From contig BQJJ01000017.1 in the NCBI GenBank assembly GCA_021604645.1, positions 1 through 46,363 on the forward strand: a stretch of DNA of 46,363 bases, read 5' to 3'. Below, in pieces: positions 9,694 to 25,267 of this stretch. Made by a program: the position numbers and the translations under genes. The notes beneath the pieces are model-generated. The model saw only the letters and a list, made by a program, of their open reading frames with translations, made no database searches and was not told the origin of the DNA. This DNA comes from Methyloligella sp. (lineage in GTDB: Bacteria; Pseudomonadota; Alphaproteobacteria; Rhizobiales; HXMU1428-3). Numbering within the stretch: the first letter of the stretch is position 1; each line of letters starts with the position of its first letter.

Positions 9694-10854
9694 TCAACTT
9701 TGCTTAATTTTTAAAGTCGGAATAAAACTTCCTATATTGGTGTTCTGATCGTAGATTATAAGCGGTAAATCAGCTTTTGGCATCCAGACACGTCCCACTT
9801 CGACAGCCGCAGAAATAGGCAGCGCAGGAAAGACGTGGATAGAAACATCCTCTCCATGTATGGCTTTTATGCGATCAAAAATTTTGCGCAAACGCTGTCG
9901 AAACATTACTAGATGGTCCGAATTTCTTATAATGTCATTGTGTGGATATTCAACAGTAATAGACCAAACAGAGACATCATCCCCTAAGACTTTATGGATA
10001 CGTTCATCGTTAACGGTAGCACTTAAAGCCAATTTGAGAGCAATGTTTTTTGACCCGTGTTTGCCTTCTGAAGTAAGGAGGGTAATTGGTTGGCTATCTT
10101 CCACCCAGCCCCACCCTTTTGGCTCCCGCTTGAGTTGATGAATATTTGCGGGACAGATATCGCATAATAGCCTGCCTAGCTCAATCAACAATGGCTGCGG
10201 TGCTAAAGCAAAAACTGATAAATGCCTGATCTCTCCCGTTTCAATTTTCCCTTTTATTTTATCCCGGAATTGCCTTTGTAAATTTTCTTGCTGGAAAGTC
10301 CAATATGATTCTTCATGGTCTTCGTATTGACAGCCTATTAACTCAAGCCCAATAGAACGGCCATCAGCAGGATAGTGGTCGGGCAAAACAACTGTACGAA
10401 CGTTTTCAAATGATAGTGGTGATTCATTCGATCCGATCTTAGCTCCGTATCGAATGACATGTGTTTGTTGGTCCTCAGTCAAATCGCCGAGGGTTTCTAT
10501 GCGCCGTTCATGAGAAGCCTTCATTTCTAGCAATCTATCCTCTGGATGCTCAGCAACTTCATCGATATCAATCAGTCGATGATGATCGTAACAAAGAAGC
10601 ATAAGATTCTGTATATCGTCTACTAGTTGGGGAGAACGTATGTCGTCACCACGGGGTCCGTTCTTATCCCCTGCTATGATGTGGGCTACAAGAGCAGCAT
10701 TGATATCACGATTCCCTGAAATAAGGTCCCCAATTAAAAGACGATTACAGTTTGAATATTGACACCGACCAGCTGCCTTAGCCCATAGGATTTGCCTTGT
10801 TTTATCTCGTACTTTTCTACTACCTGATGTTTCAGAGATACCTGCTTTACTCAT
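9694..10854 (-). CDS. cap5: CBASS effector Cap5 (HNH nuclease with SAVED sensor)
   Basis: This 386-residue nuclease should degrade DNA once it binds the cyclic nucleotide made by the CD-NTase of the same operon. The N-terminal HNH domain (about residues 20-115) shows GRCQYSNCNRLL, then VAHIIAGDKNGPRG, and LMLLCYDHHRLID with the catalytic/metal His residues. The C-terminal half is a SAVED domain, ending with the characteristic HVFPALPISAAVEVGR and a DLPLIIYDQN strand. Its ATG overlaps the upstream stop (ATGA), after GAGGAGG. It is the last gene of the three-gene operon. The abortive-infection role is established for the Cap5 family. Confidence 0.92.
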   Translation of the reverse strand: MSKAGISETSGSRKVRDKTRQILWAKAAGRCQYSNCNRLLIGDLISGNRDINAALVAHIIAGDKNGPRGDDIRSPQLVDDIQNLMLLCYDHHRLIDIDEVAEHPEDRLLEMKASHERRIETLGDLTEDQQTHVIRYGAKIGSNESPLSFENVRTVVLPDHYPADGRSIGLELIGCQYEDHEESYWTFQQENLQRQFRDKIKGKIETGEIRHLSVFALAPQPLLIELGRLLCDICPANIHQLKREPKGWGWVEDSQPITLLTSEGKHGSKNIALKLALSATVNDERIHKVLGDDVSVWSITVEYPHNDIIRNSDHLVMFRQRLRKIFDRIKAIHGEDVSIHVFPALPISAAVEVGRVWMPKADLPLIIYDQNTNIGSFIPTLKIKQS

Positions 10855-11321
10855 GTGGCCTCCTCTCGAATTGTTTCTTCATCTGGATGTCGTCCTCCGC
10901 CTTTCCATTTTCCCGTAGCTAACCACGCTTCATAAAAAGAGAGCCATCGTGATGCCCAAGGTACTGTCGTTTCTGAAATCCAATCACTTGGTGACCACTC
11001 AGACTTGTGAGGGTCGAAAAGGCAAAGATAAGGAAAAGAGGCGGTGAGTGAACTTGTATAGACATGTGGGATAGGTCCCTCTTCATATTCAGGATGCCTT
11101 TCCAAGACGGGGTCGAGAACTTGAACACGAGGTTGAACTTCAACCAACTTGAAATGCTCTATAACCAGAGGTTTTTTATAGGAGATCGTTAAAGTATATT
11201 TTTTGCGTTGGGGAGTAAGTGTTCCGACCCATTTAACACAACTCTTATCTCGGTCTTGGACCTCAAATTGCGGGTATTGCTCAGACATTTTTGTTATCTG
11301 TGCATCAATGCTTCTTATCAT
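10851..11321 (-). CDS. cap2: E2-like Cap2 of a short type II CBASS
   Basis: This 156-residue protein resembles the stand-alone E2 ubiquitin-conjugating-like Cap2 of short type II CBASS, which primes the CD-NTase by a ubiquitin-like thioester mechanism. The key segment is PYLCLFDPHKSEW, whose Cys is the candidate catalytic residue. Conserved PWASRWLSFYEAWLATG and a GGGRHP tail follow, as in this family. No E1 or JAB domain or gene is present, which separates it from the long type II systems. Both ends overlap the neighbouring genes by four bases. The named role is from family knowledge. Confidence 0.85.
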   Translation of the reverse strand: MIRSIDAQITKMSEQYPQFEVQDRDKSCVKWVGTLTPQRKKYTLTISYKKPLVIEHFKLVEVQPRVQVLDPVLERHPEYEEGPIPHVYTSSLTASFPYLCLFDPHKSEWSPSDWISETTVPWASRWLSFYEAWLATGKWKGGGRHPDEETIREEAT

Positions 11322-12562
11322 TCTTTAATTGCACCTCCGTAGAATGTATTGGGCTTTGCAATAGCAGGTGTTGAAGCAATTGAAGCGCCCGCACTTATGA
11401 GAGAAATTCGTCCATTTTTGTTATGAGCAATTCTATTTTGTTCGCCATGCTTAGCCAGACGGTCAATATATCGATTAACAGCTGCTTTCGCTGGCGATTC
11501 TCCAAAAAGACTTTCAAGAAGTTTGCCCATTTCATCCAGACTGAGATCGCCAGACCTTAACAATTTAATCTTTTCTACGAAATTATTCAGATCACCAATG
11601 AATTGCCCCTGCTCTTGCAAATTCCCAGGCCAACGATCAGTAAATTTATCTTCATGACAGCGTGGATTAGATACATCAATGAGCTGGTTGCGAGCTTGAG
11701 CATCTTTTAAGCCTCTAAGGATGTATCTTGCCTGGACAAGTAGCTCTTCACTCAAACTTTTTGCTCTACCTGTTACATCGACTACCATACAGGATATCAT
11801 TACAGTTGAAGGCATACGCCCAGTACGATTATCGTAAACCACGTTCCTGTGCCTTTTTAGGAGCTGTAATGCAACTACCGACAAGGATTTAAGATAGGCA
11901 GGCTCAGGATCAGGAACAGGTTCCGAATCTGCATCTAAGAGAAATTCAGCCTGCATTGAGCGTTGTCCGAAAGCTTTTGCAAAATCTGGATCCAACTGCA
12001 TATTTTCATTAAAGTATTCCGCAAACCCCCAAGGGTTTCCTAAAAGAGTTTCATGCTTTTCTAAAGGTTCATCTTCATGAGCGTGGAAAAGCCAACTGGT
12101 TCTTGGATCAGCCACTTCCGTGGTTAAAATCATAGGAGTAATATCGACGTGCATACCATCAGCGTAGTGAATCGTAATGCAACGTGTTCTCCGCTCAGTC
12201 ATGTCATAATACTTTGAGCCCGGCTCTCCTCGAATTGATTTGTAAAGGAGATTAAGAACATAGGCAGGCGGAGTACCAGGAGGTAGTAAGATTTCCGCGA
12301 CTTTGTCTATATCGAACTCATCATTTTTAAGTCGAGCATTGATTGTCGTCCCCGTTGCCATACTACCCTGTGCATAAAATAAGGCTATAAGCCCTTGTAG
12401 TGGGCTACCCTCACGCTCCATATGCCTTTGTAGAGCTTCTGAGCGCTCAATGGCCATTTTATGTTTTCCAGGGGGGAGTTGAACGCTAATTGCCACATCA
12501 GCTAAAAGCGCTTCTGCAATGTCCTCAAATGGATTACTCGGAATGTTTTTATCTGTGGTTTT
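11318..12562 (-). CDS. CD-NTase (cGAS-like nucleotidyltransferase) of CBASS
   Basis: This enzyme makes the cyclic oligonucleotide alarm signal. The nucleotidyltransferase core is complete: GSMATGTTI (the GS motif) followed by EFDID, the metal-binding acidic pair, and a third Asp in MHVDITPM. The C terminus contains FYGGAIKE. In related systems the CD-NTase C terminus is the site of Cap2-mediated conjugation, so this end is worth a look. I chose the ATG at 12562. A GTG at 12595 would add 11 residues but sits inside the GGGAGGTG ribosome-site-like sequence. The clade (CdnG is one guess, because of the Cap5 partner) and the product cannot be settled by eye. Confidence 0.9.
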   Translation of the reverse strand, partial: KTTDKNIPSNPFEDIAEALLADVAISVQLPPGKHKMAIERSEALQRHMEREGSPLQGLIALFYAQGSMATGTTINARLKNDEFDIDKVAEILLPPGTPPAYVLNLLYKSIRGEPGSKYYDMTERRTRCITIHYADGMHVDITPMILTTEVADPRTSWLFHAHEDEPLEKHETLLGNPWGFAEYFNENMQLDPDFAKAFGQRSMQAEFLLDADSEPVPDPEPAYLKSLSVVALQLLKRHRNVVYDNRTGRMPSTVMISCMVVDVTGRAKSLSEELLVQARYILRGLKDAQARNQLIDVSNPRCHEDKFTDRWPGNLQEQGQFIGDLNNFVEKIKLLRSGDLSLDEMGKLLESLFGESPAKAAVNRYIDRLAKHGEQNRIAHNKNGRISLISAGASIASTPAIAKPNTFYGGAIKE

Positions 12563-12620
12563 CATCAGTGTATTATTCCTGTTGTTTTTCTTCACCTCCC
12601 AAGAAGAACTAATTTCGTTC

Positions 12621-13026: not shown

Positions 13027-13946
13027 TGACGCTGCCAACCACACCTGAAGGCTGGGCAATTAGACTTTCACAGGTTGTGAGAATTTACCATGAGACACAC
13101 AAACTTGAGCGCTTTCCTATAAAAGTCGCAAGTCTTGCGAAGGAATATTCAAAGCAAGTATTTCCGAGTGAACCCATCACCATGATAAGTGCGGATGAGT
13201 TAACTGATGGCATAGAGGGGATGCTTGTGCCCAAGCCTGATGAAAGCGGTGAATGGGGAATTATTTTCAATAATTCTTCCAAAATTTCCAAAGGTCGGAT
13301 CAATTTTACACTTGGGCATGAACTAGGTCACTATTTACTACACCGCGGGCGATCACCAAAAGGCTTCAAATGCACTATGCGAAATATGATGGAATGGAAT
13401 TCGGAGGTTGGCCGTATGGAGGCGGAAGCAAATAAATTTGCCTCTTATCTGTTAATGCCCCTTGATGATTTCCGCGAAAAAATAAAGGGGCAAGAGGTAA
13501 GTATGGAACTTATGCGCCATTTAGCGGATCGTTACGAGGTTTCTATCACAGCAGCAATCTTAAAGTGGTTAGAATTTACACCCAAAAGAGCTATGCTTGT
13601 ATTTGGTATGTCAGGTTTTATAGATTGGGCTTGGTCAAGCACACCATTGATCAAGTCTGGAATTTTTTACCCAGCTCGTCAAAAAACAATACAACTTCCT
13701 AGTAAATCCTTAGCAGCTACCGGAACTCCTTATAGTGATTTTCCGGATGGCTTTAAGCATCCTAAAGGCGTATGGGCTGGTAATGAACCTGTGCATGAAA
13801 CAACGATTTTTTCACCACAGAAAGAGATGAGCATAACTCTTCTTATTTACTCTGACTATTCACCTCAAAACTTATATAAGGGCTCTGCTGATTATGAGGA
13901 AAAACGTGAGTGGGATACATTCGATCAATTTAAAACGAATAGCTAA
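13026..13946 (+). CDS. capP: CapP-like metallopeptidase (ImmA/IrrE family)
   Basis: This 306-residue protein has the zinc-protease signature HELGHYLLH at about residues 97-105, and a second acidic site in the helix around MEAEANKFASYLLMP, as in COG2856/ImmA proteins. CapP proteins are activated by ssDNA and cut CapH, which releases CBASS transcription. This role is taken from the family and from the gene order. The start codon overlaps the capH stop, with GGGGAAAG just before it. The C-terminal 130 residues probably form the sensor part. A start 15 bases earlier is possible but has no ribosome site. Confidence 0.88.
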   Translation: MTLPTTPEGWAIRLSQVVRIYHETHKLERFPIKVASLAKEYSKQVFPSEPITMISADELTDGIEGMLVPKPDESGEWGIIFNNSSKISKGRINFTLGHELGHYLLHRGRSPKGFKCTMRNMMEWNSEVGRMEAEANKFASYLLMPLDDFREKIKGQEVSMELMRHLADRYEVSITAAILKWLEFTPKRAMLVFGMSGFIDWAWSSTPLIKSGIFYPARQKTIQLPSKSLAATGTPYSDFPDGFKHPKGVWAGNEPVHETTIFSPQKEMSITLLIYSDYSPQNLYKGSADYEEKREWDTFDQFKTNS

Positions 13947-14280
13947 AACTCACACTTACTTACTGAAGGTCGCTATGTTTCTTCAGACTGGATAGCTTTG
14001 ACAAATGACATCAGCAGCTAGTCATGAGCTTTCCTTTTTATCCGAATATAAGGTGTCCGTCATTGACGTGTGCACGTGTCTTTTAAAAAATCCAGTAACA
14101 AGTAGAAAATTGCACACAATCTAAGCATGTTAGATGCAGGGATTCTGTGAGAGTGGTAGTCTTCGCCAATCCATTCGGATAGCAACATCTTATTCATCTC
14201 GTTTTTTGAACACGCCAGGTTTTTTGGCGTAAATGATTTGTTGTGACTTTCTTTCCCTCTGTTCCTGAAGGAGACAGTAC
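13947..14280. other. Gene-free stretch between capP and the next small gene
   Basis: There are 334 bp with no credible gene. A short hairpin ACGCCA-N7-TGGCGT at 14212-14230 is followed by the ribosome site of the next gene. Nothing else stands out. Confidence 0.4.
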
Positions 14281-14526
14281 ATGTCTGACAAAGATTATAA
14301 ACCTGATTTTAATGTCTACACCATCACTGGTGAAGGCAGGCAGAAATATTGGAGTAAAGTTGGTGCTGCCTTTGCGCATAGCGATGGCAAAAAGGGATAT
14401 AACATTATCCTTTCTGCTTTGCCCCTTGATGGTAAGCTTGTGCTTATTGATTATGAAGAAGATGAACAACGCCGACTTGAAGCTAAAGAGCAGCCTAAGA
14501 CGACTAAAAAAGCAACGGCTGCTTAA
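14281..14526 (+). CDS. Conserved small protein of alphaproteobacterial mobile elements
   Basis: This 81-residue soluble protein has the pattern KYWSKVGAAFAHSDGKKGYN followed by LSALPLDGKLVLID. I recognise it as a frequent hypothetical protein on alphaproteobacterial plasmids and integrative elements. Its function is unknown to me. A Lys/Ala-rich tail ends it. GAAGGAGA lies seven bases before the ATG, and a good terminator (14553-14586) follows, so it is a one-gene transcript. Confidence 0.75.
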   Translation: MSDKDYKPDFNVYTITGEGRQKYWSKVGAAFAHSDGKKGYNIILSALPLDGKLVLIDYEEDEQRRLEAKEQPKTTKKATAA

Positions 14527-14552
14527 ATAAGTTTCGACTGACCATCTAATTT

Positions 14553-14586
14553 AAGACCGCTTCTTTATAGGGCGGTCTTTTTTATA
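14553..14586 (+). terminator. Rho-independent terminator
   Basis: AAGACCGC (14553-14560) pairs with GCGGTCTT (14572-14579) and a run of T follows. It ends the transcript of the small gene at 14281-14526. Confidence 0.85.
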
Positions 14587-14636
14587 TTTAAAACTAAACG
14601 TTTTGCATTCTTGTCTTTCGCGTTACACTTAAGAGC

Positions 14637-14810
14637 CATGGGAAACCGTGACAGGGAGTAACTACCCTTTAATCGAGCGGCTGGTATTGCCGTTAACAAT
14701 ACCGCTTTCGGTATGACCGCGAAGGCGGTACTTATGTTCAGGCGAAAGCTAAAAGGTATCGCTCCATTCTCGATAATGGTTAGTTAACTTCGGGTCGCTT
14801 TTGCGGCCTT
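14637..14810 (+). ncRNA. Candidate structured leader/RNA before the HTH gene
   Basis: Four helices can be drawn in 175 bases: GGTATTG/CAATACC (14683-14703), ACCGC/GCGGT (14716-14729), CCATT/AATGG (14764-14779) and GGTCGC-TTTT-GCGGCC (14793-14808). The last is followed by TTTGTT, close to a terminator, 25 bases before the HTH start. It resembles an attenuator or small-RNA gene. I could not match it to a known riboswitch class. Confidence 0.4.
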
Positions 14811-14834
14811 TGTTCAATAATGACAAGGAGTGAC

Positions 14835-15158
14835 ATGCCAACTAATACTCATAAGATTCTCAACATTCAAATAGGCCACCGTATTCGCAAACAACGGAAA
14901 ATCTGTAATAAAAGTCAAACTGATCTAGCTGAAGTGATAGGTGTCACCTTTCAACAAATCCAAAAATATGAAAATGGTACCAATAGGGTGTCAGCTGCCA
15001 CCTTGTATTCAATCGCTAAAGTTTTAGAATTGTCTATCACGTATTTTTACGGTGATGTGGCCGACATCATAGAGACATCCGAGCTAGAATGTATCGTAAC
15101 TCGTTTTAATAAGCTTTCATATGAAAAGAAAATGGCTTTTCTCCAATTATTATCCTGA
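14835..15158 (+). CDS. XRE/cro-C1-type regulator
   Basis: This 107-residue protein has an N-terminal HTH with the form IGHRIRKQRK, SQTDLAEVIGVTFQQIQKYE and NRVSAATLYSIAKVL, followed by LSITYFY. That layout is common in alphaproteobacterial regulators and helps place the host. The ATG at 14835 follows AAGGAG. An ATG at 14820 would overlap that site. It heads the second replication/transfer block and may control it. A structured leader precedes it, and a long palindrome (15191-15246) separates it from the convergent next gene. Confidence 0.85.
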   Translation: MPTNTHKILNIQIGHRIRKQRKICNKSQTDLAEVIGVTFQQIQKYENGTNRVSAATLYSIAKVLELSITYFYGDVADIIETSELECIVTRFNKLSYEKKMAFLQLLS

Positions 15159-15190
15159 AAGCCTGAACCCCACCAGAAAACATGGTCGCC

Positions 15191-15246
15191 AGTTTCCCTT
15201 CACCTGTCCCCAGTGGGCGGAGCCATGGGACAGGCTCCAGGAAACT
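15191..15246. terminator. Two-step inverted repeat between convergent genes
   Basis: AGTTTCC (15191-15197) pairs with GGAAACT (15240-15246) and, inside it, CCTGTCCC (15203-15210) pairs with GGGACAGG (15227-15234). It lies between the ends of two convergent genes. It could stop both transcripts as a hairpin, but there is no clear T run. A protein-binding site is the alternative. Confidence 0.5.
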
Positions 15247-15261
15247 TGGCTCTAATGATCA

Positions 15262-16194
15262 CTATGGATTTTGATTTAACCTTCTTTCATGAAAATCACT
15301 CAAGCTAATAATTGTGTTTTGATTCATGAATTCAATAAGAGGTTCGAAATTAATCGGTAGTTTGTGATTTTTTATTTCCTCATGAAAACCCTCAATATTG
15401 GAAAATCCTTTTTTTAAAATACCATCAAATGAACCAAGCTCTCCTTGATAATCATTTAATCCATTTTTTGGTTTTTCTTGTACGTGACAAGCTGAATCTA
15501 ACCGTGCAAAACAAATTGGTGAGAGCTTAAATTCTGTATGGGTGTTCGCTGTGTAACCTGTCATATAAAAAGTAGACTTTTTTGGTGTTGAATTTGAATT
15601 CAAAATCATCAGATGAGATCTGTCACTGAAATTTCTCAAAAATTGAGAATGAGGCAGATGAGAAATAAAAATTTTATTGTGCCCCATTGCATAATGAATT
15701 CCACCCACCTCTTGTTTTGTTATGTCTGTTCCGTAGAGTTTTTCTCGGCCATAATAATGAAGAGTAAAAGCATAATAATTTTCAAGAGACCCCAGACACA
15801 TAATGACGACTTGTGGAGAGTGGTTATGTGGATTTAATCTTATGCCTAGATACAAGCCCCTCGGAGCTTGATACTCGGTTAGATCTAATGAACTTGCTTT
15901 TTTGATAGACCCTAAAACATTGAACGGATCGGCATATTCAGATTCTGGCTCAGATAGTAATTTCTTAATGCCACCATTTTGATCGACAAATTCAATAATC
16001 GCTTTTATGCGTTTATCTCGGCGTTTTTTACCCGTGCTGCCTTTTACAAAATTTTGCAGATAAACATCCGTGACTTGAACACCAACTAACTGTAAAGCCA
16101 TTTCTTTATAGCTCATAACTTCATTGAGTACTTTTAGAGCCCTTCGATATTGATTGATCTGTGCTTCGCTGATTGTCAAATAATCATAATTCAT
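15262..16194 (-). CDS. Unrecognised 310-residue protein
   Basis: I do not recognise this gene. Residues 25-70 (SYKEMALQLVGVQVTDVYLQ, then a KGSTGKKRRDKR stretch) could be a helix-turn-helix-like segment. The rest is a mixed alpha/beta domain without known motifs, signal or membrane segments. It is opposite to its neighbours, lies on AT-rich DNA between the HTH regulator and the excisionase-like gene, and has no good ribosome site at its ATG. It may be a regulator with a C-terminal sensor, or cargo inserted in the replication block. Confidence 0.55.
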   Translation of the reverse strand: MNYDYLTISEAQINQYRRALKVLNEVMSYKEMALQLVGVQVTDVYLQNFVKGSTGKKRRDKRIKAIIEFVDQNGGIKKLLSEPESEYADPFNVLGSIKKASSLDLTEYQAPRGLYLGIRLNPHNHSPQVVIMCLGSLENYYAFTLHYYGREKLYGTDITKQEVGGIHYAMGHNKIFISHLPHSQFLRNFSDRSHLMILNSNSTPKKSTFYMTGYTANTHTEFKLSPICFARLDSACHVQEKPKNGLNDYQGELGSFDGILKKGFSNIEGFHEEIKNHKLPINFEPLIEFMNQNTIISLSDFHERRLNQNP

Positions 16195-16340
16195 TTGATT
16201 GAACCTGGGTGATTTGTTCTGGCCTATACGCCAAGTAAATTTCAGTAAAAAATTCTTGCCAAACCTTATCGATTTACTTGCTCGATTTATAGCAGTTTTT
16301 CAGACACCCTATTAGCATCACTAACCGTTTAGAGAAAGTC

Positions 16341-16586
16341 ATGCAGATGTCTAATAACCTTCAGAATGTTGATTCGTATTTCAATACCAAAGAAGCAGCT
16401 CAATGCCTCAACCTTTCACCGCGCACTTTAGAACGTATGCGGGTGAGTGGTGGTGGACCGCAGTTTTTTAAAGCCGGGCCTGGCAAGAGGTCCCGTGTGC
16501 TTTATGCCAGATCAGACCTTGTCAAATGGCTGGAAGCGCGTTGCTTCGATAGCACCTCAGAATATGAGACTCTTGGCAAGCTTTAA
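16341..16586 (+). CDS. Excisionase/AlpA-like HTH protein
   Basis: This 81-residue MerR-like HTH_17 protein has FNTKEAAQCLNLSPRTLERM at about residues 14-33, then a wing ending in VLYARSDLVKWLEAR. Such proteins act as recombination directionality factors or as regulators of replication genes. It stands 74 bp before the rolling-circle rep gene, so control of rep or of excision is equally possible. It is far from the integrase but is the only excisionase-like gene in the element. Confidence 0.72.
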   Translation: MQMSNNLQNVDSYFNTKEAAQCLNLSPRTLERMRVSGGGPQFFKAGPGKRSRVLYARSDLVKWLEARCFDSTSEYETLGKL

Positions 16587-16659
16587 GCCATCCAAAAAAT
16601 CGGATCAGGGCCTTTACTTGATACTAATCGAAACATCAGGTCGTTTTGAAAGAAAAACA

Positions 16660-17640
16660 ATGACAGAAAATAACCAACCCCTACATCATATCACACCATC
16701 AGGTAAGCATCGCAATTGGCGCAAGCATCGTTTGCAATCAATTGCTTTGGGGGCAGCCTACAAACGATTAGGGGTTGGTTTCCAGAAAAAATCAGAGCGG
16801 GTTTTTAATTGCACGCGGCGCATAGATTTTGCCAAGCCAGAAGAAGGACAATTGGGTCAAACAGTTATCAATCGTTACGGCTGTAAAGATCGTTTGTGTC
16901 CAGGGTGTCAATCAACCCGTTCTCGTAAAAACTTCATGGAATTAATGGGGCTTTATCAGCATTATAAAAATTCATATCCGGCAGATCGGGCTGCCATGTT
17001 AACACTGACCATGCCAAACGTCTCTATCGCCACCATGAAAGAAGATATCAGTGCGCTTTTAACCGGCTTTCGCAAGCTAACCCGTCGCAAACCATTTGAA
17101 CAAGCTGTGCGGGCCTGGTTTCGGGCTTTGGAAGTTTCTTATAATCAAGAAACCGGTCTTTACCACCCCCATATTCACGCATTGCTTCTGTTTCCACCTC
17201 ACTATTTTGATAAGCAGCATAATTTTTATCTCAATCATCAACAATGGTTGAAGCTCTGGCAGCAAGTCATGCGCCGTCCTGATATTAAGCATCTCGATAT
17301 CCGGATGCTTAAAGCTCACCCCTTATCAAACCCTGAGCAGGGCAAAGAATTAGCTATGGGTAAAGCAATCGCCGAAATTGCCAAATATGCAACCAAACCA
17401 GCAGATATTTTCATACCGAATGGTGGCGGCTACACGGTCGATGAACAGGTCATCTTTGCCTTGGCTTACACACTTAAACATCGGCGACTGATCGCCTTTA
17501 GTAAAGTCTTTCGTGAGTTCCGCCGCGAACTCACACCCTCAACAAAAGAATCCGAGATAGACGAATTAGATGTCTATGTCTGGTTGGAGCAGCCGGACGT
17601 GCAGACGGTTGATTATTTCCTCCATGAATTCTGCACATAA
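16660..17640 (+). CDS. Rep_1-family rolling-circle initiator (possible relaxase)
   Basis: This 326-residue HUH endonuclease is of the pUB110-type Rep_1 family. A zinc-like segment CKDRLCPGCQ (about residues 72-81), the strand MLTLTMPNV, the metal-binding YHPHIHALLLF and the candidate catalytic Tyr in EIAKYATKP occur in the family order. It nicks a double-strand origin and starts single-strand displacement. Rep_1 proteins in some Firmicutes elements serve as relaxases with an FtsK-like coupling protein, and that pairing is also present here (18063-19850). The ATG at 16660 was chosen because the frame upstream overlaps the HTH gene. The ribosome site is weak. Confidence 0.88.
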   Translation: MTENNQPLHHITPSGKHRNWRKHRLQSIALGAAYKRLGVGFQKKSERVFNCTRRIDFAKPEEGQLGQTVINRYGCKDRLCPGCQSTRSRKNFMELMGLYQHYKNSYPADRAAMLTLTMPNVSIATMKEDISALLTGFRKLTRRKPFEQAVRAWFRALEVSYNQETGLYHPHIHALLLFPPHYFDKQHNFYLNHQQWLKLWQQVMRRPDIKHLDIRMLKAHPLSNPEQGKELAMGKAIAEIAKYATKPADIFIPNGGGYTVDEQVIFALAYTLKHRRLIAFSKVFREFRRELTPSTKESEIDELDVYVWLEQPDVQTVDYFLHEFCT

Positions 17641-17669
17641 TAACTCAACTCTCAATTAAGGAGAAACAC

Positions 17670-17933
17670 ATGCCGCTTATGTTTCAAGGAAAGATTAAAG
17701 GGATCAAACCTAAACAGTTCGACAATGTTAAAACTCATATATTGCAATTCATTGAAGACAAGCCTGATGGGTCGTTTGATACGATTCAAATAAAGGTATC
17801 AAGTGACGTGCCAATGACTGAGTTCAAAAAAGAACAAACTGTGTCTGTGCCGGTACTCTTGGCCAGTATGGATAATCAGATCTATTACCGGATTGATGCA
17901 GAAGTTTACAAACAACAGCTTGCTCGACGGTAA
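17670..17933 (+). CDS. Small protein, candidate ssDNA-binding (OB-fold)
   Basis: This 87-residue beta-rich protein directly follows rep, with TTAAGGAG before the ATG. Its size, the alternating hydrophobic strands and the position after a rolling-circle initiator suggest a gene-V-like single-strand binding protein that coats displaced DNA. There is no diagnostic motif, so the call is contextual. Confidence 0.5.
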   Translation: MPLMFQGKIKGIKPKQFDNVKTHILQFIEDKPDGSFDTIQIKVSSDVPMTEFKKEQTVSVPVLLASMDNQIYYRIDAEVYKQQLARR

Positions 17934-18062
17934 ACAGATCAGTCATGCAGAGATCAGCTTTACCGGAAAAGATGCATCAAACATTGATCACTGCCACCAA
18001 TAAATAAGTTGGACAGGCTTATGCGCAAAGTCTGTACAGCACCTAAATTCCGGAGATTAAAA

Positions 18063-19850
18063 ATGAAATTTGAATCAAGATTGGACAGAGCCTATCAAAA
18101 CAGGGTCGGCTTGATCATTCTTACAACGATGAGAGCGCAGGCCTGGTTAACACAGAGCTTTATTCTGGCTGTTCTGAGTTTCGAGCTGCATGGTTCACAT
18201 GGTTGGGCTGTCGTTGTCTTTTTTATCAGCCTGTTTTGCTTATTTGGGCACAATTATCCCTATTGGGAACTTTTTCTAGGTCCCATACTGTATAAGAGAG
18301 GTTATTCTGCAACCCCACTAAAGCTTGCTCTTATTAAAACCTTCTTCCCAATTGTTCTGATTTACACTTTGCCTGAGTGTAAAAAGTTACTCTACCGCCA
18401 CTATAATATCGGCCAGCAATGGATGAACAGTTCCAAAAAACTTACCCTATTAGAACAGACAGAGACACTTGCTCAAGAAAATGAGCAAAAAAGAGATCGC
18501 TTAATTAAAATTATCGATTGGGGAATGAAACGCTACCAAAATCAAAGCATCCGTAAGTTTGCTAATGCTATGAGAGCGATTGGCCAACATATAGATGCGC
18601 TTGAGCCTCATTATGAATGGGGTGCAAGTGAAGAAACTCTATGCAATTTGTTTGAGCGCTATAATTATGGTCTTCCAAGTCATAAGGAACTGATTGAAGA
18701 CAGGTATCGCAATAAAATAGCTCCAAGCTATGATGGTAAAAACCTACCTGAAATTTCACCACAACAATCAACCCGAGAAGGCAAGCTCTTATATCTTGCT
18801 GTGCTCATCAGGGCTGAAAAAGATAAACATTATAATCGGCTGGATTTTAAAAGATCTGATTTTAATAAGGGCCGTTATGTTTACACGTCTGATCGTAGTG
18901 CTATTGATATGGTGTATTGGAATAGACACTTGCCTGCTATCAATGCTTACCTTGGCGGTGAATGGATGATAGAGCCGATAGATGGCACCTCACTCACGCT
19001 GTTTCAACTGCAAGAGTTACCACCGGTCATTCCGTTTCAGCCAGAGTTTTTACAAGATGGTAAAATCTTCTATGGCTTTAATGTCAGAACAGGGGAGCGT
19101 TATTATAATGATCTTGATAAATTCCCACACCATCTTATCGTCGGGCAATCGGGCTCTGGTAAATCAGTGTTTTTAAACCAAGTGATGGCATCTGTCATTC
19201 ACAACATGGATTATTTTGAAAAGATTGTCCTGATTGATTTAAAAGGCGGTGTAGAACTTGCGAAATATGAAGGGCTGCATTCTAAAATTCATTTGGTTGA
19301 TGATTATGATGATCTCTTGGGGAATATCGAAAAAATCTATGCGCAATTGAAAGAACGCCTTAAACTTATGAAACAAAAAGGTCATACCATTTATGATGGC
19401 CCGCATTTGTGTATGATCGTTGATGAATATGCTCAAATCCAACAGTTTGAACCAATCACAAAACAAGAGAAAGAAGCTTATAAGCTTTTACTCTCCTATT
19501 TAAATCGCATTTCAATGTTGGGGCGTGCTGCTCGTGTGACCATTTGGGCGCAACTTCAAAAAGCAACCGTGGATAATATCAGTGCCAGTTTCAGAAATAA
19601 TCTCCAGACTAAAATTTGTTTCAAAGTCCATTCTAACTCAGATGCAGCAATTGTATTTGGTAACGCTGCTGATTTGCCAGGCATAGCTTCATTAAGTGGG
19701 TTCAAGAATATGCCGAAGGGTCGTTTTGTCTTAAGTGATGATGTCACAGGTGAAGATGTGTATATGCAAGCAGCGATGTTAGATGACGGGTTTCCGCTGG
19801 CCCGTCTGCTTCAGACGGCTGGCGATGCGCGAGTGGTAAGTGAGGAATAA
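18063..19850 (+). CDS. FtsK/TcpA-like DNA translocase
   Basis: This 595-residue membrane ATPase has two N-terminal transmembrane helices at about residues 32-75, then a linker and an FtsK/SpoIIIE motor domain. The motor shows Walker A GQSGSGKS, the FtsK-type segment LIDLKGGVELAKY, and Walker B LCMIVDEYAQ. It lacks a gamma domain and is shorter than chromosomal FtsK, so a TcpA/TraB-type coupling or conjugation motor is more likely. The start at 18063 follows CGGAGA. A TTG at 18009 would add 18 residues. With the Rep_1 gene it forms a second initiator-motor pair, unrelated to the MobA/VirD4 pair. Confidence 0.85.
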   Translation: MKFESRLDRAYQNRVGLIILTTMRAQAWLTQSFILAVLSFELHGSHGWAVVVFFISLFCLFGHNYPYWELFLGPILYKRGYSATPLKLALIKTFFPIVLIYTLPECKKLLYRHYNIGQQWMNSSKKLTLLEQTETLAQENEQKRDRLIKIIDWGMKRYQNQSIRKFANAMRAIGQHIDALEPHYEWGASEETLCNLFERYNYGLPSHKELIEDRYRNKIAPSYDGKNLPEISPQQSTREGKLLYLAVLIRAEKDKHYNRLDFKRSDFNKGRYVYTSDRSAIDMVYWNRHLPAINAYLGGEWMIEPIDGTSLTLFQLQELPPVIPFQPEFLQDGKIFYGFNVRTGERYYNDLDKFPHHLIVGQSGSGKSVFLNQVMASVIHNMDYFEKIVLIDLKGGVELAKYEGLHSKIHLVDDYDDLLGNIEKIYAQLKERLKLMKQKGHTIYDGPHLCMIVDEYAQIQQFEPITKQEKEAYKLLLSYLNRISMLGRAARVTIWAQLQKATVDNISASFRNNLQTKICFKVHSNSDAAIVFGNAADLPGIASLSGFKNMPKGRFVLSDDVTGEDVYMQAAMLDDGFPLARLLQTAGDARVVSEE

Positions 19851-19949
19851 GTCGATGCGCGAGTGCGTGAGGCCGAGTGAGCGGAGCGAAAGAGGGTGAT
19901 CAAACGAGAGAGGAGGGCTTGTGACAAGCGTCCGCGAGTGCATCGCCAG
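19803..19949. repeat. Palindromic region spanning the ftsK-like stop
   Basis: Near the 3' end of the motor gene CCGTCTG-CTT-CAGACGG (about 19803-19819) is followed by a 10-bp inverted repeat, CTGGCGATGC at 19819-19828 and GCATCGCCAG at 19940-19949. GATGCGCGAGTG occurs twice between. The DNA here is GC-rich and unlike the rest. It may be a replication or transfer structure or a palindromic repeat. The 180 bp that follow hold no gene I would defend. Confidence 0.5.
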
Positions 19950-20133
19950 AGGATCGATAGATCGCCAGCGGAAGCGCGGCGGATGGCAGATCTCTCAAAT
20001 GAAACAATACAGCCTTGAGCTCAGTGGGAAAGAGATAAGGGAGTGAGACGAATTTATGACCACAATTAAAGTCAGCAACACACAGCAAAGAGGCCAGGGT
20101 TTTATTACTCTGGCCATTCTTATTTGATTTCAT

Positions 20134-20274
20134 TTAAAACCAACCGCGTCGGGCTCTTTTCTTAGCGCGGCGTTGTTTTAACCAAGTGGCGTAAAATCTG
20201 CGCAACTTGGCAAACAGGTGCATCGACACATAAAGAATAAAAGCTGATTTCCAAAGTAGTAGTTCAAATTCCAT
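20134..20274 (-). CDS. 46-residue basic membrane peptide
   Basis: A short frame begins MEFELLLWKSAFILYVSMHL and ends with the very basic KQRRAKKRARRGWF. It has one hydrophobic segment (about residues 5-22) followed by Arg/Lys-rich residues, the layout of a small inner-membrane protein with a cytoplasmic basic tail. AAGGAGAAATAATT precedes the ATG and matches the sites of ardA and the small gene at 17670. A very large hairpin (20316-20511) lies directly upstream on the same strand. Function unknown. It could be a toxin-like peptide or a transfer accessory. Confidence 0.65.
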   Translation of the reverse strand: MEFELLLWKSAFILYVSMHLFAKLRRFYATWLKQRRAKKRARRGWF

Positions 20275-20315
20275 AATTATTTCTCCTTGTTGTTGATAGG
20301 AGTAGTATGGCGGAG

Positions 20316-20428
20316 ATCTCTAGCCTTTTCACAGCCGAGGGGCTCCCGTCTGCAAGCGGAATATATAATAATACCCGAAGGGTTCTATATCCGCTGAAGA
20401 TGGGAAACGGCTTGAAAAGGCTAGAGAT
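20316..20428. repeat. 113-bp extended hairpin upstream of the 46-residue peptide
   Basis: A perfect 16-bp stem (20316-20331 with 20413-20428) continues through AGCCG/CGGCT, TCCCGTCT/AGATGGGA (one G-T wobble), AGCGG/CCGCT and ACCC/GGGT to a three-base loop. Almost the whole length pairs. It is a candidate single-strand origin, single-strand promoter or structured RNA of the rolling-circle block. Confidence 0.8.
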
Positions 20429-20439
20429 GTAATAGAATG

Positions 20440-20511
20440 CCCCATGAGAGCCTGGACTAGGGAGCAGCCCCTAATTAGCTAGAGACCGCTGGCCAGGCAT
20501 CTCTCATGGGG
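20440..20511. repeat. Second extended hairpin, adjacent
   Basis: CCCCATGAGAG (20440-20450) pairs perfectly with CTCTCATGGGG (20501-20511), and inside it GCCTGG pairs with CCAGGC. It lies 11 bp from the first hairpin and just after the ardA stop on the minus strand. It may also terminate ardA transcription. Confidence 0.75.
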
Positions 20512-20536
20512 GAATAAATAACTTAAAAACACTTGT

Positions 20537-21043
20537 CTAAGGACAAGTGTAGATAAAGTATTTTCCAGCAATGGTAACTTCTGAATGGTCCATTGAAAGG
20601 TCGTAAGCCATGGCATCATAGTCGATGTAGTTAGCAAGTGATGATGGAATATCACCGTAATAGCCTTCATCGACAAACTGTTCAGCGAGTTCTCTTAAAG
20701 TATCACAATGGTAGATGATGACTTCAAAGTCATCGGGTTTGACTGTTTGAGGATCAAAGTCGTACCCGACTTCACCAACGGCAATGATGAAGCATTGTTT
20801 CTCATGGAGTTCCCAATCTTCAGTAGCTTTAAAAAAGCTCTCTAGAGAGCATTGAGATAAGCCCCAGGCATGTGCCAGTGCGACATCAATACTTTCGCCT
20901 TCTATAAACTGAATTTCATATTCTTCAACGGGCTGATTGTAATCATTTCGGTTGGCTTTGGCTTGTTTGAGATAGTCCTCTGCATTGTCGAAATAAAAGC
21001 CCGATGCTGAAATGTCGTAAGGTTGAGCGAATAGGGTTGTCAT
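20537..21043 (-). CDS. ardA: ArdA-type antirestriction protein (DNA mimic)
   Basis: This 168-residue, strongly acidic protein blocks type I restriction enzymes by mimicking B-DNA. Family marks are the LAEQFVDEGYYGDIP segment with SLANYIDYDAMAYDLSMD next to it, which is the conserved ArdA C-terminal region, and the many Asp/Glu residues. The start at 21043 follows AAAGGAGAAACAATC. The gene protects the element when it enters a new cell as unmodified DNA. A large cloverleaf-like inverted repeat lies directly upstream (21083-21195), in the position where some plasmids carry single-strand promoters for early ardA expression. Confidence 0.9.
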   Translation of the reverse strand: MTTLFAQPYDISASGFYFDNAEDYLKQAKANRNDYNQPVEEYEIQFIEGESIDVALAHAWGLSQCSLESFFKATEDWELHEKQCFIIAVGEVGYDFDPQTVKPDDFEVIIYHCDTLRELAEQFVDEGYYGDIPSSLANYIDYDAMAYDLSMDHSEVTIAGKYFIYTCP

Positions 21044-21082
21044 GATTGTTTCTCCTTTTGTTTTCAAGACAGCGGAGAGACA

Positions 21083-21195
21083 AGCCGGGTGCTGAGCGCC
21101 AAGGGTCACTGACAGCTTTGCTGGAAGGAAACGGCCAACACGGGCTTCTTTAAAGCTGGTGCGGGCAGGCCGTTGACCCTGCGCTCCAACCGGCT
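21083..21195 (-). promoter_or_regulatory. Large inverted repeat before ardA (candidate single-strand promoter)
   Basis: Paired blocks run AGCCGG/CCGGCT (21083/21190), GAGCGC/GCGCTC (21094/21181), AGGGTCA/TGACCCT (21102/21174) and ACGGCC/GGCCGT (21131/21168), with an inner CAGC-TTT-GCTG side hairpin. It lies 40 bp upstream of ardA. Frpo/ssi-type promoters of conjugative plasmids have this appearance and position. That function is inference. Confidence 0.55.
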
Positions 21196-21552
21196 AGACA
21201 GCAGCACCTTGAATAAACAAAAGGAGAAATAATCTGATAACAATGCTCGGGACTGATCGGAATTCATCTGACAAAATGAGACAACAGTGGTCTCATGGCC
21301 TTCAAGCACATTAGAAATTGCTTAAATTAGTTAGGTGAGAATTTATCGGTTTTAAAAGAAGGCAATTAAATGATTAGCGCCTTCAAGTGCTCAAGAACGG
21401 CTTCTAGGCTTAATGTTTTCATAACATCTGATTACAACAAATGCTTAACAGAATTAGATGCTTTTTTCTGACATGTGGACTTGCCGTTCAAGTCTCTTCT
21501 TCAGTAACTCCCCCAATATCTGTATTGTTTTTGCCGCTCCCTTTTCAAGCAA

Positions 21553-21704
21553 CAGCTCCAAGCTGCCTTTCGCTTTGCAATGGTGCGTAACGTGCTTCCC
21601 GTCTGGATGCAATGAGCTTCCGCACCAAGTGACCGAGAAGCTATGCATCCAGCCGCTCAGCACGTTCTCTCCCGCACCATCGAAAGGCAGCTGTAACTGA
21701 GCTG
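21553..21704 (+). promoter_or_regulatory. 150-bp extended hairpin before ardC (candidate single-strand promoter)
   Basis: Paired blocks are CAGCTC/GAGCTG (21553/21699), AGCTGCCTTTCG/CGAAAGGCAGCT (21561/21681, 12 bp), ATGGTGCG/CGCACCAT (21580/21673), ACGTGCT/AGCACGT (21590/21659), CTGGATGCA/TGCATCCAG (21603/21644) and AGCTTC/GAAGCT (21615/21637). All nest in order. It ends 28 bp before the ardC start. The rest of 21310-21552 shows nothing I can name. Confidence 0.65.
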
Positions 21705-21731
21705 TCTCAATTTTTGAAAAGGAGAGCTCTT

Positions 21732-22616
21732 ATGAAAAAAAGCAAAACAGATATTTATCAGGCCGTGACTGATCAGATTATCAGTTCACTTGAGCAAGGC
21801 ACAGGTGAGCCGCAAATGCCCTGGCAACGCATCGGGTTTAAAACAGGATTACCAACCAATGCTTCCACCCAAAATGAATATCAAGGCATTAACATACTTT
21901 CATTATGGGCTTCAGCAATGACACAACAATTTGAACAAGGGCTTTGGGCCACTTATCGCCAATGGCAAGCCATTGATTGCCAGGTTAAACAAGGTTCTAA
22001 AGCCAGCTTGGTTATTTTCTATAAGGAATATGAAGCTGACCCAAGTACTGTGAATGAAAATGCAGGAGATGATGGCAAGCGCCGTGTGGCAAAAGCCAGC
22101 TATGTCTTTAATGTTGCTCAGGTTGAAGGTTATAGCCAAGAACAGATTATTGAACCACAACCTCCAATGGATCGTATTTTAAAGGCTGATCAATTTATTC
22201 AATTTTCTTCTGCCACCATTCAACATGGTGGTGATCTTGCCTTTTACCAACCAGCCACCGATCATATTCAAATGCCAGATGAACATCTTTTTATTGGTTC
22301 TGAAACTTTCAATCGTCAGGAAGCTTATTATGCTGTGTTGCTTCATGAACTTACCCATTGGACTGGACATAAATCACGCCTGAACCGTTCATTCAGTGAT
22401 CGCTTTGGTAGTGAAGCATATGCAATAGAAGAACTGGTTGCAGAACTTGGGTCTGCTTTTCTCTGTGCCGATCTAAATATTACACCAGAGACCCGGCCAG
22501 ATCATGCTAAATATATTCAATCATGGCTTAAAGTGATGAAGGCGGATAATCGTGCCGTTTTTGCTGCTGCTTCTAAAGCACAAGAAGCTGTGCGTTTTTT
22601 AAAACAGTTGAAATAG
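21732..22616 (+). CDS. ardC: ArdC-type antirestriction protein (ssDNA-binding, zincin domain)
   Basis: This 294-residue protein has the ArdC N-terminal domain (DIYQAVTDQIISSLEQG, then MPWQRIG and NEYQGINILSLW), known to bind single-stranded DNA. Its C-terminal metallopeptidase-like domain has HELTHWTGH (about residues 210-218) and a downstream acidic EELVAELGSAF helix. ArdC proteins protect incoming DNA against restriction. I use the ATG at 21732, because AAAGGAGAG lies just before it. A TTG at 21714 would overlap that site. It is the last gene of the second transfer block. Confidence 0.9.
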   Translation: MKKSKTDIYQAVTDQIISSLEQGTGEPQMPWQRIGFKTGLPTNASTQNEYQGINILSLWASAMTQQFEQGLWATYRQWQAIDCQVKQGSKASLVIFYKEYEADPSTVNENAGDDGKRRVAKASYVFNVAQVEGYSQEQIIEPQPPMDRILKADQFIQFSSATIQHGGDLAFYQPATDHIQMPDEHLFIGSETFNRQEAYYAVLLHELTHWTGHKSRLNRSFSDRFGSEAYAIEELVAELGSAFLCADLNITPETRPDHAKYIQSWLKVMKADNRAVFAAASKAQEAVRFLKQLK

Positions 22617-22900: not shown

Positions 22901-25267
22901 TTAATTGTGCAAATTAACGTGGCGCAACCGCAAGGCGTTTGCGATTACAGAGACTGAAGATAAACTCATCGCAGCAGCTGCGATCATAGGAGACAATAAC
23001 CAACCTGTTAGTGGATAGAGAATTCCTGCAGCTATAGGAATACCAGCCGCATTATAGGCAAAGGCGAAAAACAGGTTTTGTTTGATATTGGTGATAGTCG
23101 CCTGCGACAAGTTTCGAGCGCGAACAATTCCATCCAGGTTACCTTTTACTAAAGTGAAACCAGCACTTTCAACCGCTACATCCGCTCCAGTTCCCATAGC
23201 AATACCCACATCAGCAGCAGCAAGTGCAGGAGCATCATTAACTCCATCACCTGCCATAGCCACATAATTTCCTTTTGAATGGAGTTCGTCAACTAAAGCT
23301 TTTTTATCTTCCGGTAAGACATCAGCACGGATTTCATCAATACCGAGCTTTGAAGCTACAGCCATGGCTGTGCGTTTGTTATCACCCGTAGCCATTATTA
23401 TTTTTAAGCCAGCTGCATGGATGGCTTTTATAGCTTCAAATGTAGAAGGTTTAATCGGATCAGCGACAGCAATCAGACCAGAAAACTGGTTATCAATCGC
23501 AATAAACATTGCTGTTTTACCTTCATCACGAAGTTGATCAGCCTGGTGATGAAATGAAGTTATATCAAGGTTTAGTGCATCCATCATTCCTGTATTTCCA
23601 AGAGAAACTTTTTTTGTCCCAATCTTACCAGTAACACCTTTGCCAGTGATGGCTTCAAAACCTTCTGAATTGCTAAGTTTGTGGCCACGATCTTCAGCAC
23701 CCTTAATTATAGCCTCAGCTAAGGGGTGCTCTGACCCTCTCTCAAGTGAAGCTGCAAGAGTAAGAAGTTCATTTTGATCAATTCCATCGACAGGTATAAT
23801 ATCTGTGACCTTTGGCTTGCCTTCAGTGAGGGTGCCCGTTTTATCAACAATCAAAGTATCAACTTTTGCAAAAAGCTCCAATACTTCAGCATCACGAACC
23901 AGAACACCTGATTGTGCGCCGCGACCGGTTGCTATCATAATAGACATGGGGGTTGCTAGTCCTAATGCACAAGGGCAAGCGATAATTAAGACTGAAACCG
24001 CGACGACTAAAGCATGGGCTAAAGCTGGCTGTGGCCCTAGCAATGCCCAGATTACAAAGGCGATAGAAGCGACCAGAACAACAATTGGTACAAAATAACT
24101 CGCAATTTTATCAGCCAGACCTTGGATAGGTGCTCTGGATCTCTGAGCAGCTGCAACCATGTTTATTATTTTTGCTAACATAGTATCATCGCCAACACGC
24201 TCTGCCTCCATGATGATTGAGCCCGTTCCGTTTAAGGTGCCACCTGTCAATTTATCACTTTCAGATTTTTCAACTGCAATTGGTTCGCCTGATATCATAC
24301 TTTCATCTATAGAAGACCTACCTTCCAGAACAATTCCGTCAACGGGAACACTTTCTCCAGGGCGCACCCTTAGTCTGTCACCCACAAGAATATTCTCAAG
24401 CGGGACATCTCTTTCAGAACCATCAGCATTAATTCTTCTCGCCATTTTAGGAGATAAATCAAGAAGGGCACGAATAGCTGATCCAGTACGTTGCCGGGCA
24501 CGAAGCTCCAAAACTTGACCTAGGAATACGAGTGTCACAATTACAGCAGCTGCTTCAAAATAGACAGGCACCGTGCTATCTATCTCTCTAAACGATGCTG
24601 GAAATATGCCTGGGAGTAGGGCTGCAATTAGGCTGTATCCATAGGCAGCACCCACACCCAGCATAATAAGAGTCCACATATTGGGACTTTGATTGAGTAT
24701 AGAATTCCAACCTCGTTTAAAGAATGGGATGGCTGCCCATAGAATAACTGGTGTACTAAGTGCTAATTCAATCATTATCGTTGTATTTTCCCCTAACCAT
24801 TCGCGGATATTTAAGCCTATCAATGGTCCCATAGTCAGTATTAAAAGGGGAATAGAACAAATTGCTGATACCCAGAAACGCTGAGTAAAATCAATTAATT
24901 CTTCGTTAGGCTCATCGGTTGGTATGCCTTTTGGCTCTAGAGTCATTCCACAAATGGGGCAATCTCCTGGATGGTCCTGTATGATTTCCGGGTGCATGGG
25001 GCAAGTATATTCAGTTTCGGCACCAGCAGTTTTTGTTTTTAGTTTGTGCGCACCAGATATATAAAATTCAGGATCGGCCTCAAATTTATCATGACAATTT
25101 TCTGAACAAAAATGATAGGACGTCCCCTTATGGACATGTGCAGGTTTATGCTTATTTTTATCAACACTCATACCACAAACAGGATCAGTCTCTTTGGTAT
25201 CGTTAACATTCTGATTAGAATGTGTTGCATTATTTGAATGATCACATTTGCTATCTTGTTTGGTCAT
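22901..25267 (-). CDS. copA: Copper-exporting P1B-type ATPase with YHS and heavy-metal-binding domains
   Basis: This 788-residue pump moves Cu(I) (possibly Ag) from the cytoplasm. Order: His-rich N terminus, YHS-like domain (DPVCGMSV, then YHFCSENC), a heavy-metal-binding domain with YTCPMHPEI and CPICGMTLEP, eight membrane helices with the ion site CPC in IACPCALGLATP, the phosphorylation site DKTGTLTEG, nucleotide-binding MATGDNKRT, and GDGVNDAPAL. It lacks the classical CXXC ferredoxin-like domain. AAGGAACG precedes the ATG. The promoter at 25299-25329 has the geometry of a MerR-family copper promoter. Confidence 0.93.
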   Translation of the reverse strand: MTKQDSKCDHSNNATHSNQNVNDTKETDPVCGMSVDKNKHKPAHVHKGTSYHFCSENCHDKFEADPEFYISGAHKLKTKTAGAETEYTCPMHPEIIQDHPGDCPICGMTLEPKGIPTDEPNEELIDFTQRFWVSAICSIPLLILTMGPLIGLNIREWLGENTTIMIELALSTPVILWAAIPFFKRGWNSILNQSPNMWTLIMLGVGAAYGYSLIAALLPGIFPASFREIDSTVPVYFEAAAVIVTLVFLGQVLELRARQRTGSAIRALLDLSPKMARRINADGSERDVPLENILVGDRLRVRPGESVPVDGIVLEGRSSIDESMISGEPIAVEKSESDKLTGGTLNGTGSIIMEAERVGDDTMLAKIINMVAAAQRSRAPIQGLADKIASYFVPIVVLVASIAFVIWALLGPQPALAHALVVAVSVLIIACPCALGLATPMSIMIATGRGAQSGVLVRDAEVLELFAKVDTLIVDKTGTLTEGKPKVTDIIPVDGIDQNELLTLAASLERGSEHPLAEAIIKGAEDRGHKLSNSEGFEAITGKGVTGKIGTKKVSLGNTGMMDALNLDITSFHHQADQLRDEGKTAMFIAIDNQFSGLIAVADPIKPSTFEAIKAIHAAGLKIIMATGDNKRTAMAVASKLGIDEIRADVLPEDKKALVDELHSKGNYVAMAGDGVNDAPALAAADVGIAMGTGADVAVESAGFTLVKGNLDGIVRARNLSQATITNIKQNLFFAFAYNAAGIPIAAGILYPLTGWLLSPMIAAAAMSLSSVSVIANALRLRHVNLHN

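Follow-up and report, generated by a model that had tools for sequence, protein, structure and literature searches.

A probable integrative mobilizable element of Methyloligella sp. with a candidate second module combining a Rep_1 initiator and an FtsK-like motor

Results

A candidate second DNA-processing module apart from MobA and VirD4

Contig BQJJ01000017.1 of Methyloligella sp. (Alphaproteobacteria; assembly GCA_021604645.1, 3.57 Mb), analyzed here over its entire length of 46,363 nucleotides (hereafter the window, or C17), contains an integrated element with two DNA-processing modules. Module 1 consists of a MobA relaxase and a VirD4 coupling protein encoded at 5–9 kb. Module 2, which lies apart from it, consists of an excisionase-like helix-turn-helix (HTH) protein, a Rep_1 initiator, a small oligonucleotide-binding (OB)-like protein, and an FtsK-like motor, followed by the antirestriction genes ardA and ardC. 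The occurrence of a Rep_1 and FtsK-like pair away from MobA/VirD4 in an alphaproteobacterial element had been proposed in a first-pass annotation and was borne out. We tentatively interpret the window as an integrative mobilizable element (IME) in which module 2 would be a second, rolling-circle replication and transfer module, and give this interpretation a chance close to even.

The recurring unit of module 2 spans positions 16341–19850 and is followed by ardA, ardC, and two structured non-coding blocks. Its first gene (16341–16586, + strand) encodes an excisionase/AlpA-like HTH_17 protein (42.5 bits for a Pfam cut-off of 27), homologues of which adjoin the module in other elements too. The second gene (16660–17640, +) encodes a 326-residue HUH rolling-circle initiator (Rep_1, PF01446; 191.6 bits, cut-off 33.2) with intact HUH (YHPHIHALL) and KYATKP motifs. 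Translation probably starts at the ATG at 16660 rather than at the GTG at 16447, since the homologue from a second element of the same genome (C9) aligns from the former position. The active site displays the E-x3-Y motif of rolling-circle replication (RCR) plasmid initiators such as pC194 RepA, as do the proteins of C9, of the genomes G006, G045, and G201, and of Vibrio rotiferianus. The 87-residue product of the next gene (17670–17933, +) was modeled as an OB-like barrel with PriB and SSB as nearest, modestly scoring structures, in keeping with its earlier designation as a candidate single-stranded DNA (ssDNA)-binding protein. Comparison of the OB profile with sequences of the PDB gave one chain (E = 0.7), and the Rep profile gave nothing at E ≤ 0.1. 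The FtsK/TcpA-like motor (18063–19850, +; FtsK_SpoIIIE, PF01580, 53.1 bits, cut-off 24) has a start judged by eye, the longest open reading frame (ORF) beginning at a TTG at 18009, and about two N-terminal hydrophobic helices according to hydropathy. ArdA (20537–21109, −) and ArdC (21732–22616, +; start judged by eye) also pass their Pfam cut-offs. The genes named in the first-pass annotation, which covered 14835–22616, are thus present, together with a further HTH gene (14820–15158) and an ORF (15262–16194) without a Pfam match.

The unit is not a chance arrangement, because the same gene order is repeated in C9 and in a third copy carried by a 24-kb contig (JAEPQF010000049.1) of a Hyphomicrobiales metagenome-assembled genome (MAG) of the same genus (G006). 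Identity to the window was 76% (C9) and 56% (G006) for the FtsK-like protein and 81% and 77%, respectively, for Rep_1. The order common to the window and C9 is ParA, RepA, MobA, VirD4, cargo, a small conserved ORF, HTH_17, Rep_1, OB protein, FtsK-like protein, ArdA, ArdC, cargo, and integrase. The G006 copy holds MobA, VirD4, HTH_17, Rep_1, OB, FtsK-like, and ArdA proteins; no ArdC or integrase match was found on its 24-kb contig.

Purifying selection acts on genes of both modules. For the single pair formed by the window and C9, the ratio of non-synonymous to synonymous substitution rates (dN/dS) was 0.03 for RepA, 0.07 for MobA (dS of 2.5, near saturation) and VirD4, 0.09 for Rep_1, 0.10 for ArdC, 0.13 for the FtsK motor, 0.24 for ArdA, and 0.25 for HTH_17. 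Since dS was about 0.5 for the FtsK motor, ArdA, and ArdC, and 1.0–2.5 for RepA, VirD4, Rep_1, HTH_17, and MobA, the motor and Ard genes have probably been exchanged as a block at a later date than the others.

Co-occurrence of Rep_1 and the FtsK-like motor

Rep_1 was searched in 397 genomes of the order (12 matching) and 385 genomes of the class (6 matching, including that of the window), which gave a total of 19 places. Seven loci had E-values ≤1e-29 (window, C9, G006, G045, G179, G316, and G201), and all seven were followed within 3 kb by an FtsK-like ORF in the same orientation. One weaker place was an ORF neighboring the G201 locus. Of the other 11 weaker loci, none had an FtsK-like match reaching E ≤ 1e-20 within the stretch that was read; a match at E = 4.7e-4 was seen in one, and two were on contigs of less than 5 kb. 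In the order, a profile of the seven FtsK-like proteins detected only these loci and G004, whose gene is truncated at the start of the contig and whose genome yielded no Rep_1 match. Searches with profile A4, partly circular in being built from loci already known and with the best three to four candidates scored per genome, matched 7 of 397 genomes of the order (E ≤ 1e-28), 14 of 372 genomes of the class (E ≤ 1e-22), and 1 of 329 genomes of the phylum (E ≤ 1e-30), the latter being the genome of the window. The 14 matches in the class comprised this genome and 13 that matched the motor core only, in open frames of 593–861 residues in 12 cases and 442 residues in one. None of the FtsK-like matches in 218 plasmid and 216 phage records covered 80% of the query.

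Ten Rep_1 loci came from named genomes. One (L029) corresponds to G006 and one (L036, 1–5625) is from V. rotiferianus; the eight others (L030–L035, L037, and L038; contigs of 3.2–4.6 kb) carry Rep_1 without an FtsK-like ORF. The Vibrio contig holds little beyond genes for Rep_1, an OB-like protein, and an FtsK-like protein (in two frames); as it overlaps itself by 1.2 kb, it probably represents a circular molecule of about 4.4 kb. In a tree of Rep proteins, FtsK-bearing and FtsK-free members did not form two clean clades, most forks lacking resolution.

The motor forms a clade separate from chromosomal FtsK

In a tree of 41 motor domains, several branches of which are long, the Vibrio piece joined the eight element proteins in a single clade (support 99/97). 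Outside it lay 14 rows of chromosomal type, rows from phages and metagenomes, one TraB row, and two rows for TcpA, of which one was identified as such from its TcpD/TcpE neighbors. Membership in the chromosomal, dimer-resolution FtsK group, which would have spoken against the first-pass proposal, was rejected: holding the clade with the chromosomal rows gave an approximately unbiased test value (p-AU) of 3.9e-6 in a strict version of the test that also forces other rows out of the chromosomal group. The TraB row, on a very long branch, fell outside the element clade. The best PDB sequence match of the motor profile was 6o1w, a 'DNA translocase coupling protein' (TcpA of pCW3; 105 bits, profile positions 216–507); FtsK (2iuu) scored 87.6 bits. 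The window protein shows two features of TcpA-type proteins, an FtsK_SpoIIIE domain and N-terminal membrane helices, the latter from hydropathy only. Hydrophobic helices were predicted in the motor itself or, for G045 and G179, in a neighboring gene. A model of the whole motor from a two-row alignment was unusable (predicted local distance difference test score of 37.7).

Structured non-coding DNA

Two stem-loops lie between the convergent ftsK and ardA genes: A (20316–20428), with a 16-bp perfect outer stem, and B (20440–20511). The block containing them (20306–20530) is 94% identical to C9 and 92% to G006, the median for 200-bp windows over 14.8–22.7 kb being 80.5% and 60%, respectively; a stretch around the ardA start is equally conserved. 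Its predicted DNA folding was more stable than that of all 200 shuffled sequences (z = −8.0), and a 40-shuffle script gave z-scores of −9.9 (window), −7.7 (C9), and −7.8 (G006). The block is too conserved for a covariation test, as only 2 of 67 pairs differed at both positions, each in a single row. No copy was detected in the six other genomes of the same genus, and the block matched no Rfam family and no plasmid. Situated between gene ends, it would be more like an origin, which could be a single-strand origin (sso), a double-strand origin (dso), or an origin of transfer (oriT).

The second structured block is an imperfect hairpin of about 180 nucleotides that ends at the ribosome-binding site of ardC (21541–21721, +). 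It also folded better than all 200 shuffles (z = −7.0), with script values of −12.4 (window), −7.7 (C9), and −4.5 (G179). Among control genes of the window, 17 of 18 had z-scores between −1.9 and 0.7. The remaining value, −6.0, belonged to the region just upstream of an ATPase gene (22901–25267, −). The leading regions of conjugative plasmids carry anti-defense genes, such as ardA, some of them preceded by Frpo promoters, which adopt a folded structure in ssDNA, according to the available part of a published study (PMC11541004). By analogy, the pre-ardC block may be an Frpo-like ssDNA promoter, and the folding of both blocks would fit DNA working in single-stranded form.

Conserved non-coding DNA sits at 20.3–20.5 kb and also at 15.17–15.25 kb, where an 81-bp block (15171–15251) contains an imperfect hairpin (arms 15191–15210 and 15227–15246). 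This candidate origin (dso or oriT) or operator is 88.8–93% identical across three elements and folds weakly (z = −1.5 to −2.3), with no compensatory change seen by eye; its 16-base core had four matches in viral contigs, no more than chance may give. Near the origin position guessed in the first-pass annotation (16.3–16.7 kb) there is an inverted repeat of 9 bp without mismatches (16232/16272). The longest form of the pC194/pUB110 nick motif was absent and its shorter forms were scattered. Rfam searches at E ≤ 5 returned nothing convincing in 13900–16500 and 20200–20620.

Canonical relaxases near the module

A canonical relaxase was present within about 15 kb of six of the seven strong Rep_1 loci. 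The window, C9, and G006 have MobA and VirD4. G316 has a PF03432 relaxase and a VirD4-like ORF, and the relaxases of G201 and G045 are similar to that of G316 (E = 9e-112 and 3e-11, respectively); G045 additionally encodes a pair resembling MobA/VirD4 some 18 kb further away. For G179, three relaxase queries and one VirD4 query gave no match in 60 kb. As to whether the pair co-occurs without MobA/MobL, a check suggested in the first-pass annotation, three of the seven loci have a MobA/MobL (MobQ) relaxase and three a VirD2/MobP-like relaxase (recognized by Pfam in one case and by similarity to that protein in the two others), and none was found in the seventh.

Boundaries and cargo of the element

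The integrated element spans 92–46020 (about 45.9 kb), as the 3' part of a tRNA-Met gene is exactly repeated just beyond a tyrosine integrase. The tRNA-Met (65–141), at the contig start, is the only Rfam match in the window at gathering score. Its 39-bp 3' part forms the attL core (92–130, +), and the attR core (45982–46020, +) adjoins the integrase gene (44674–45822, −; Phage_integrase, 86.6 bits), similarity running on to 46031 with two mismatches. Contigs C3 and C13 have the same 141-bp tRNA-Met end as the window, as if the occupied and unoccupied sites had both been assembled, perhaps owing to excision or a mixed population. The 332 bp beyond attR had no match elsewhere in the genome, and may therefore lead into a second element or a different flank. 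The C9 element occupies a tRNA-Arg gene and is bounded by exact 63-bp repeats (at 21446 and 52014); its integrase is 69% identical to that of the window over 379 residues.

The left part of the element encodes a ParA-type ATPase (616–1254, +), a RepA_C plasmid initiator (1744–2673, +), the MobA/MobL (MobQ) relaxase (5139–6404, +; MobA_MobL, 179.6 bits), and the VirD4/TraG coupling protein (7781–9397, −; T4SS-DNA_transf, 274 bits). The element thus has att-site integration with its own integrase, and its own relaxase, as expected for an IME. A complete type IV secretion system (T4SS) of its own is absent, the sole VirB4 (PF03135) match of the genome being on C2 (position 116523) and not on C17. 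This VirB4 may belong to a helper; VirB4 was detected in G006 too.

A Fic/DOC protein is encoded between MobA and VirD4 (6576–7772). Between VirD4 and the Rep_1 module, cargo resembling a cyclic oligonucleotide-based antiphage signaling system (CBASS; 9694–12595) comprises a SAVED-HNH protein, a 156-residue ORF, and a SMODS nucleotidyltransferase; in C9, its place is taken by different long ORFs that by eye resemble methylases and helicases. Of the small conserved ORF located close to the Rep_1 module (14281–14526), G006 has two copies (L026, 11181–11474 and 14577–14843), one adjoining VirD4 and the other nearer the Rep_1 module. Metal-type cargo (22901–43846) includes a P-type ATPase (by eye), and a multicopper oxidase, a cupredoxin, and a resistance-nodulation-division efflux system (by Pfam). 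Identity to G006 reaches 94.9% over 2478 bp in the ATPase region, most other matching stretches being at 72–82%, and this region therefore probably moved recently. In the G179 element (L051, 14517–16424), a family A DNA polymerase is encoded just 3' of the HTH_17 gene.

Discussion

The association of an RCR initiator with an FtsK-type motor is known from streptococcal IMEs, which combine an RCR-type relaxase, an FtsK-domain coupling protein, an excisionase, and a tyrosine integrase without a T4SS; the main difference here is its location alongside a canonical relaxase. As described in the available part of that survey (PMC5357655), the streptococcal relaxases are of the MobT/PF02486, PF01719, PHA00330, PF01719-PF00910, or PF02407 types, the tcpA gene is upstream of the relaxase gene, TcpA never occurs with a canonical relaxase, and the host is Gram-positive, whereas the present element has PF01446, a downstream ftsK, and MobA/VirD4 in an alphaproteobacterial host. 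A closer parallel for PF01446 is provided by three Firmicutes plasmids (pC194, and pUB110- and pTA1060-type), whose Rep_1 proteins act as relaxases with ConQ, the FtsK/TcpA-type coupling protein of ICEBs1, as stated in the available part of a report (PMC5714925) that cites Lee et al. (2012). This is a direct precedent and backs the proposal of a motor-coupled Rep_1, although the motor and the Rep come there from two elements and here lie in one cassette, in which Rep_1 may act in mobilization. Among the matches listed by our literature search, in which subscription journals were mostly out of scope, no title or abstract start described a Rep_1-OB-FtsK cassette in Proteobacteria.

In the mechanism that we propose, the integrase and the HTH protein would excise the element as a circle, Rep_1 would nick an origin and drive rolling-circle replication, and the OB protein would coat the strand displaced in this process. 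The FtsK-like motor, anchored in the membrane, would bring the Rep_1-DNA complex to the secretion channel of a helper, as ConQ presumably does for Rep_1 plasmids in Bacillus, and ardC would be transcribed early in the recipient from the hairpin in single-stranded DNA. That the motor is a second coupling protein for the Rep_1-headed strand beside MobQ/VirD4, allowing the element to enter two kinds of channels, is a more specific claim that we consider less likely than not.

Several observations weigh against the proposed interpretation. VirB4 was not detected with PF03135 in five of the seven genomes bearing the module or a remnant, and no Gram-negative T4SS with a TcpA-type coupling protein is described in the available part of a recent review (PMC12857230), which assigns TcpA-type proteins to a subset of Gram-positive systems and VirD4 to all Gram-negative ones. 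Grouping of the motor clade with the two TcpA rows was compatible with the data (p-AU = 0.53) and not established by them; although TcpA of pCW3 (6o1w) is the best solved sequence relative of the motor, the proteins of these elements cluster by themselves. Hydropathy gave no hydrophobic helix for the FtsK-like protein of either G316 or G201, for two ORFs next to the G316 gene, or for the longer of the Vibrio pieces. The KYxxK motif was not recognizable in the Rep of G316, Q replaces the motif Glu in that of G179, and the Rep match of G201 contains one in-frame TGA. The region before ardC in G045 (z = −0.5) and three regions before ardA (z = −1.2 to 0.5) showed no unusual folding. Finally, dN/dS for whole-length FtsK was 0.25, and synonymous sites of the OB gene were saturated, leaving it without a value.

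The presence of a canonical relaxase at six of the seven loci is a further point of this kind, since module 2 may then serve replication only. Rep_1 would multiply the excised circle, the OB protein would protect the strand, the FtsK-like motor would position, segregate, or clear circles at the membrane, and transfer would depend on MobA/VirD4 alone. We regard this explanation as a serious one, of appreciable though less than even probability. Relaxase co-occurrence is both its strongest point and the main difference from the streptococcal IMEs. The replication-only explanation is also consistent with the plasmid-type E-x3-Y active site, and with the short MAG contigs L030–L035 (3.3–4.6 kb), on which Rep_1 without an FtsK-like ORF seems to be enough. 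However, the element already has RepA and ParA, small RCR plasmids need no motor, and the motor belongs to its own clade outside chromosomal FtsK and is adjoined by ardA and ardC.

Self-transfer of the type found in actinomycete integrative and conjugative elements (AICEs), in which the motor alone would pump double-stranded DNA into a neighboring cell without a T4SS, like Streptomyces TraB, is quite improbable. The integrase, Xis-like, Rep, and FtsK-like set does resemble the modules of AICEs such as pSAM2, and G179 has this set with no relaxase found in 60 kb and no VirB4 by PF03135. Yet TraB operates in mycelial Actinobacteria, a two-membrane envelope would require a channel, and the single TraB row, long-branched as it is, did not group with the element proteins. 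In addition, AICEs have RepSA, RepAM, or Prim-Pol initiators and an FtsK-family protein as sole transfer protein, whereas the window has PF01446 and MobA/VirD4, which lie outside the AICE modules; these elements were confined to Actinomycetales in a published survey, as far as its available part describes them (PMC3218068). Least probable is a remnant of an ssDNA phage or satellite whose Rep, OB protein, and motor would package or extrude DNA: the Vibrio Rep distantly matches nine phage records (six labeled Inovirus, one a satellite phage), but a search of viral contigs by two peptide patterns, with 44 stretches tested, yielded no relative of the Rep alignment, and a Pfam scan of 30 proteins of the window revealed no capsid or coat family.

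If the FtsK-like motor does serve as such a second coupling protein, it would represent, as far as the literature was searched, the first case of TcpA-like coupling in a bacterium with two membranes, the element having its own antirestriction region read from single strands. Typing of elements by canonical relaxases alone might miss those resembling G179. A Rep_1-OB-FtsK cassette maintained under selection beside MobA/VirD4 in elements of Hyphomicrobiales offers a way of testing whether an FtsK-type motor can support transfer in a two-membrane cell, and why one element maintains two relaxase/motor pairs.

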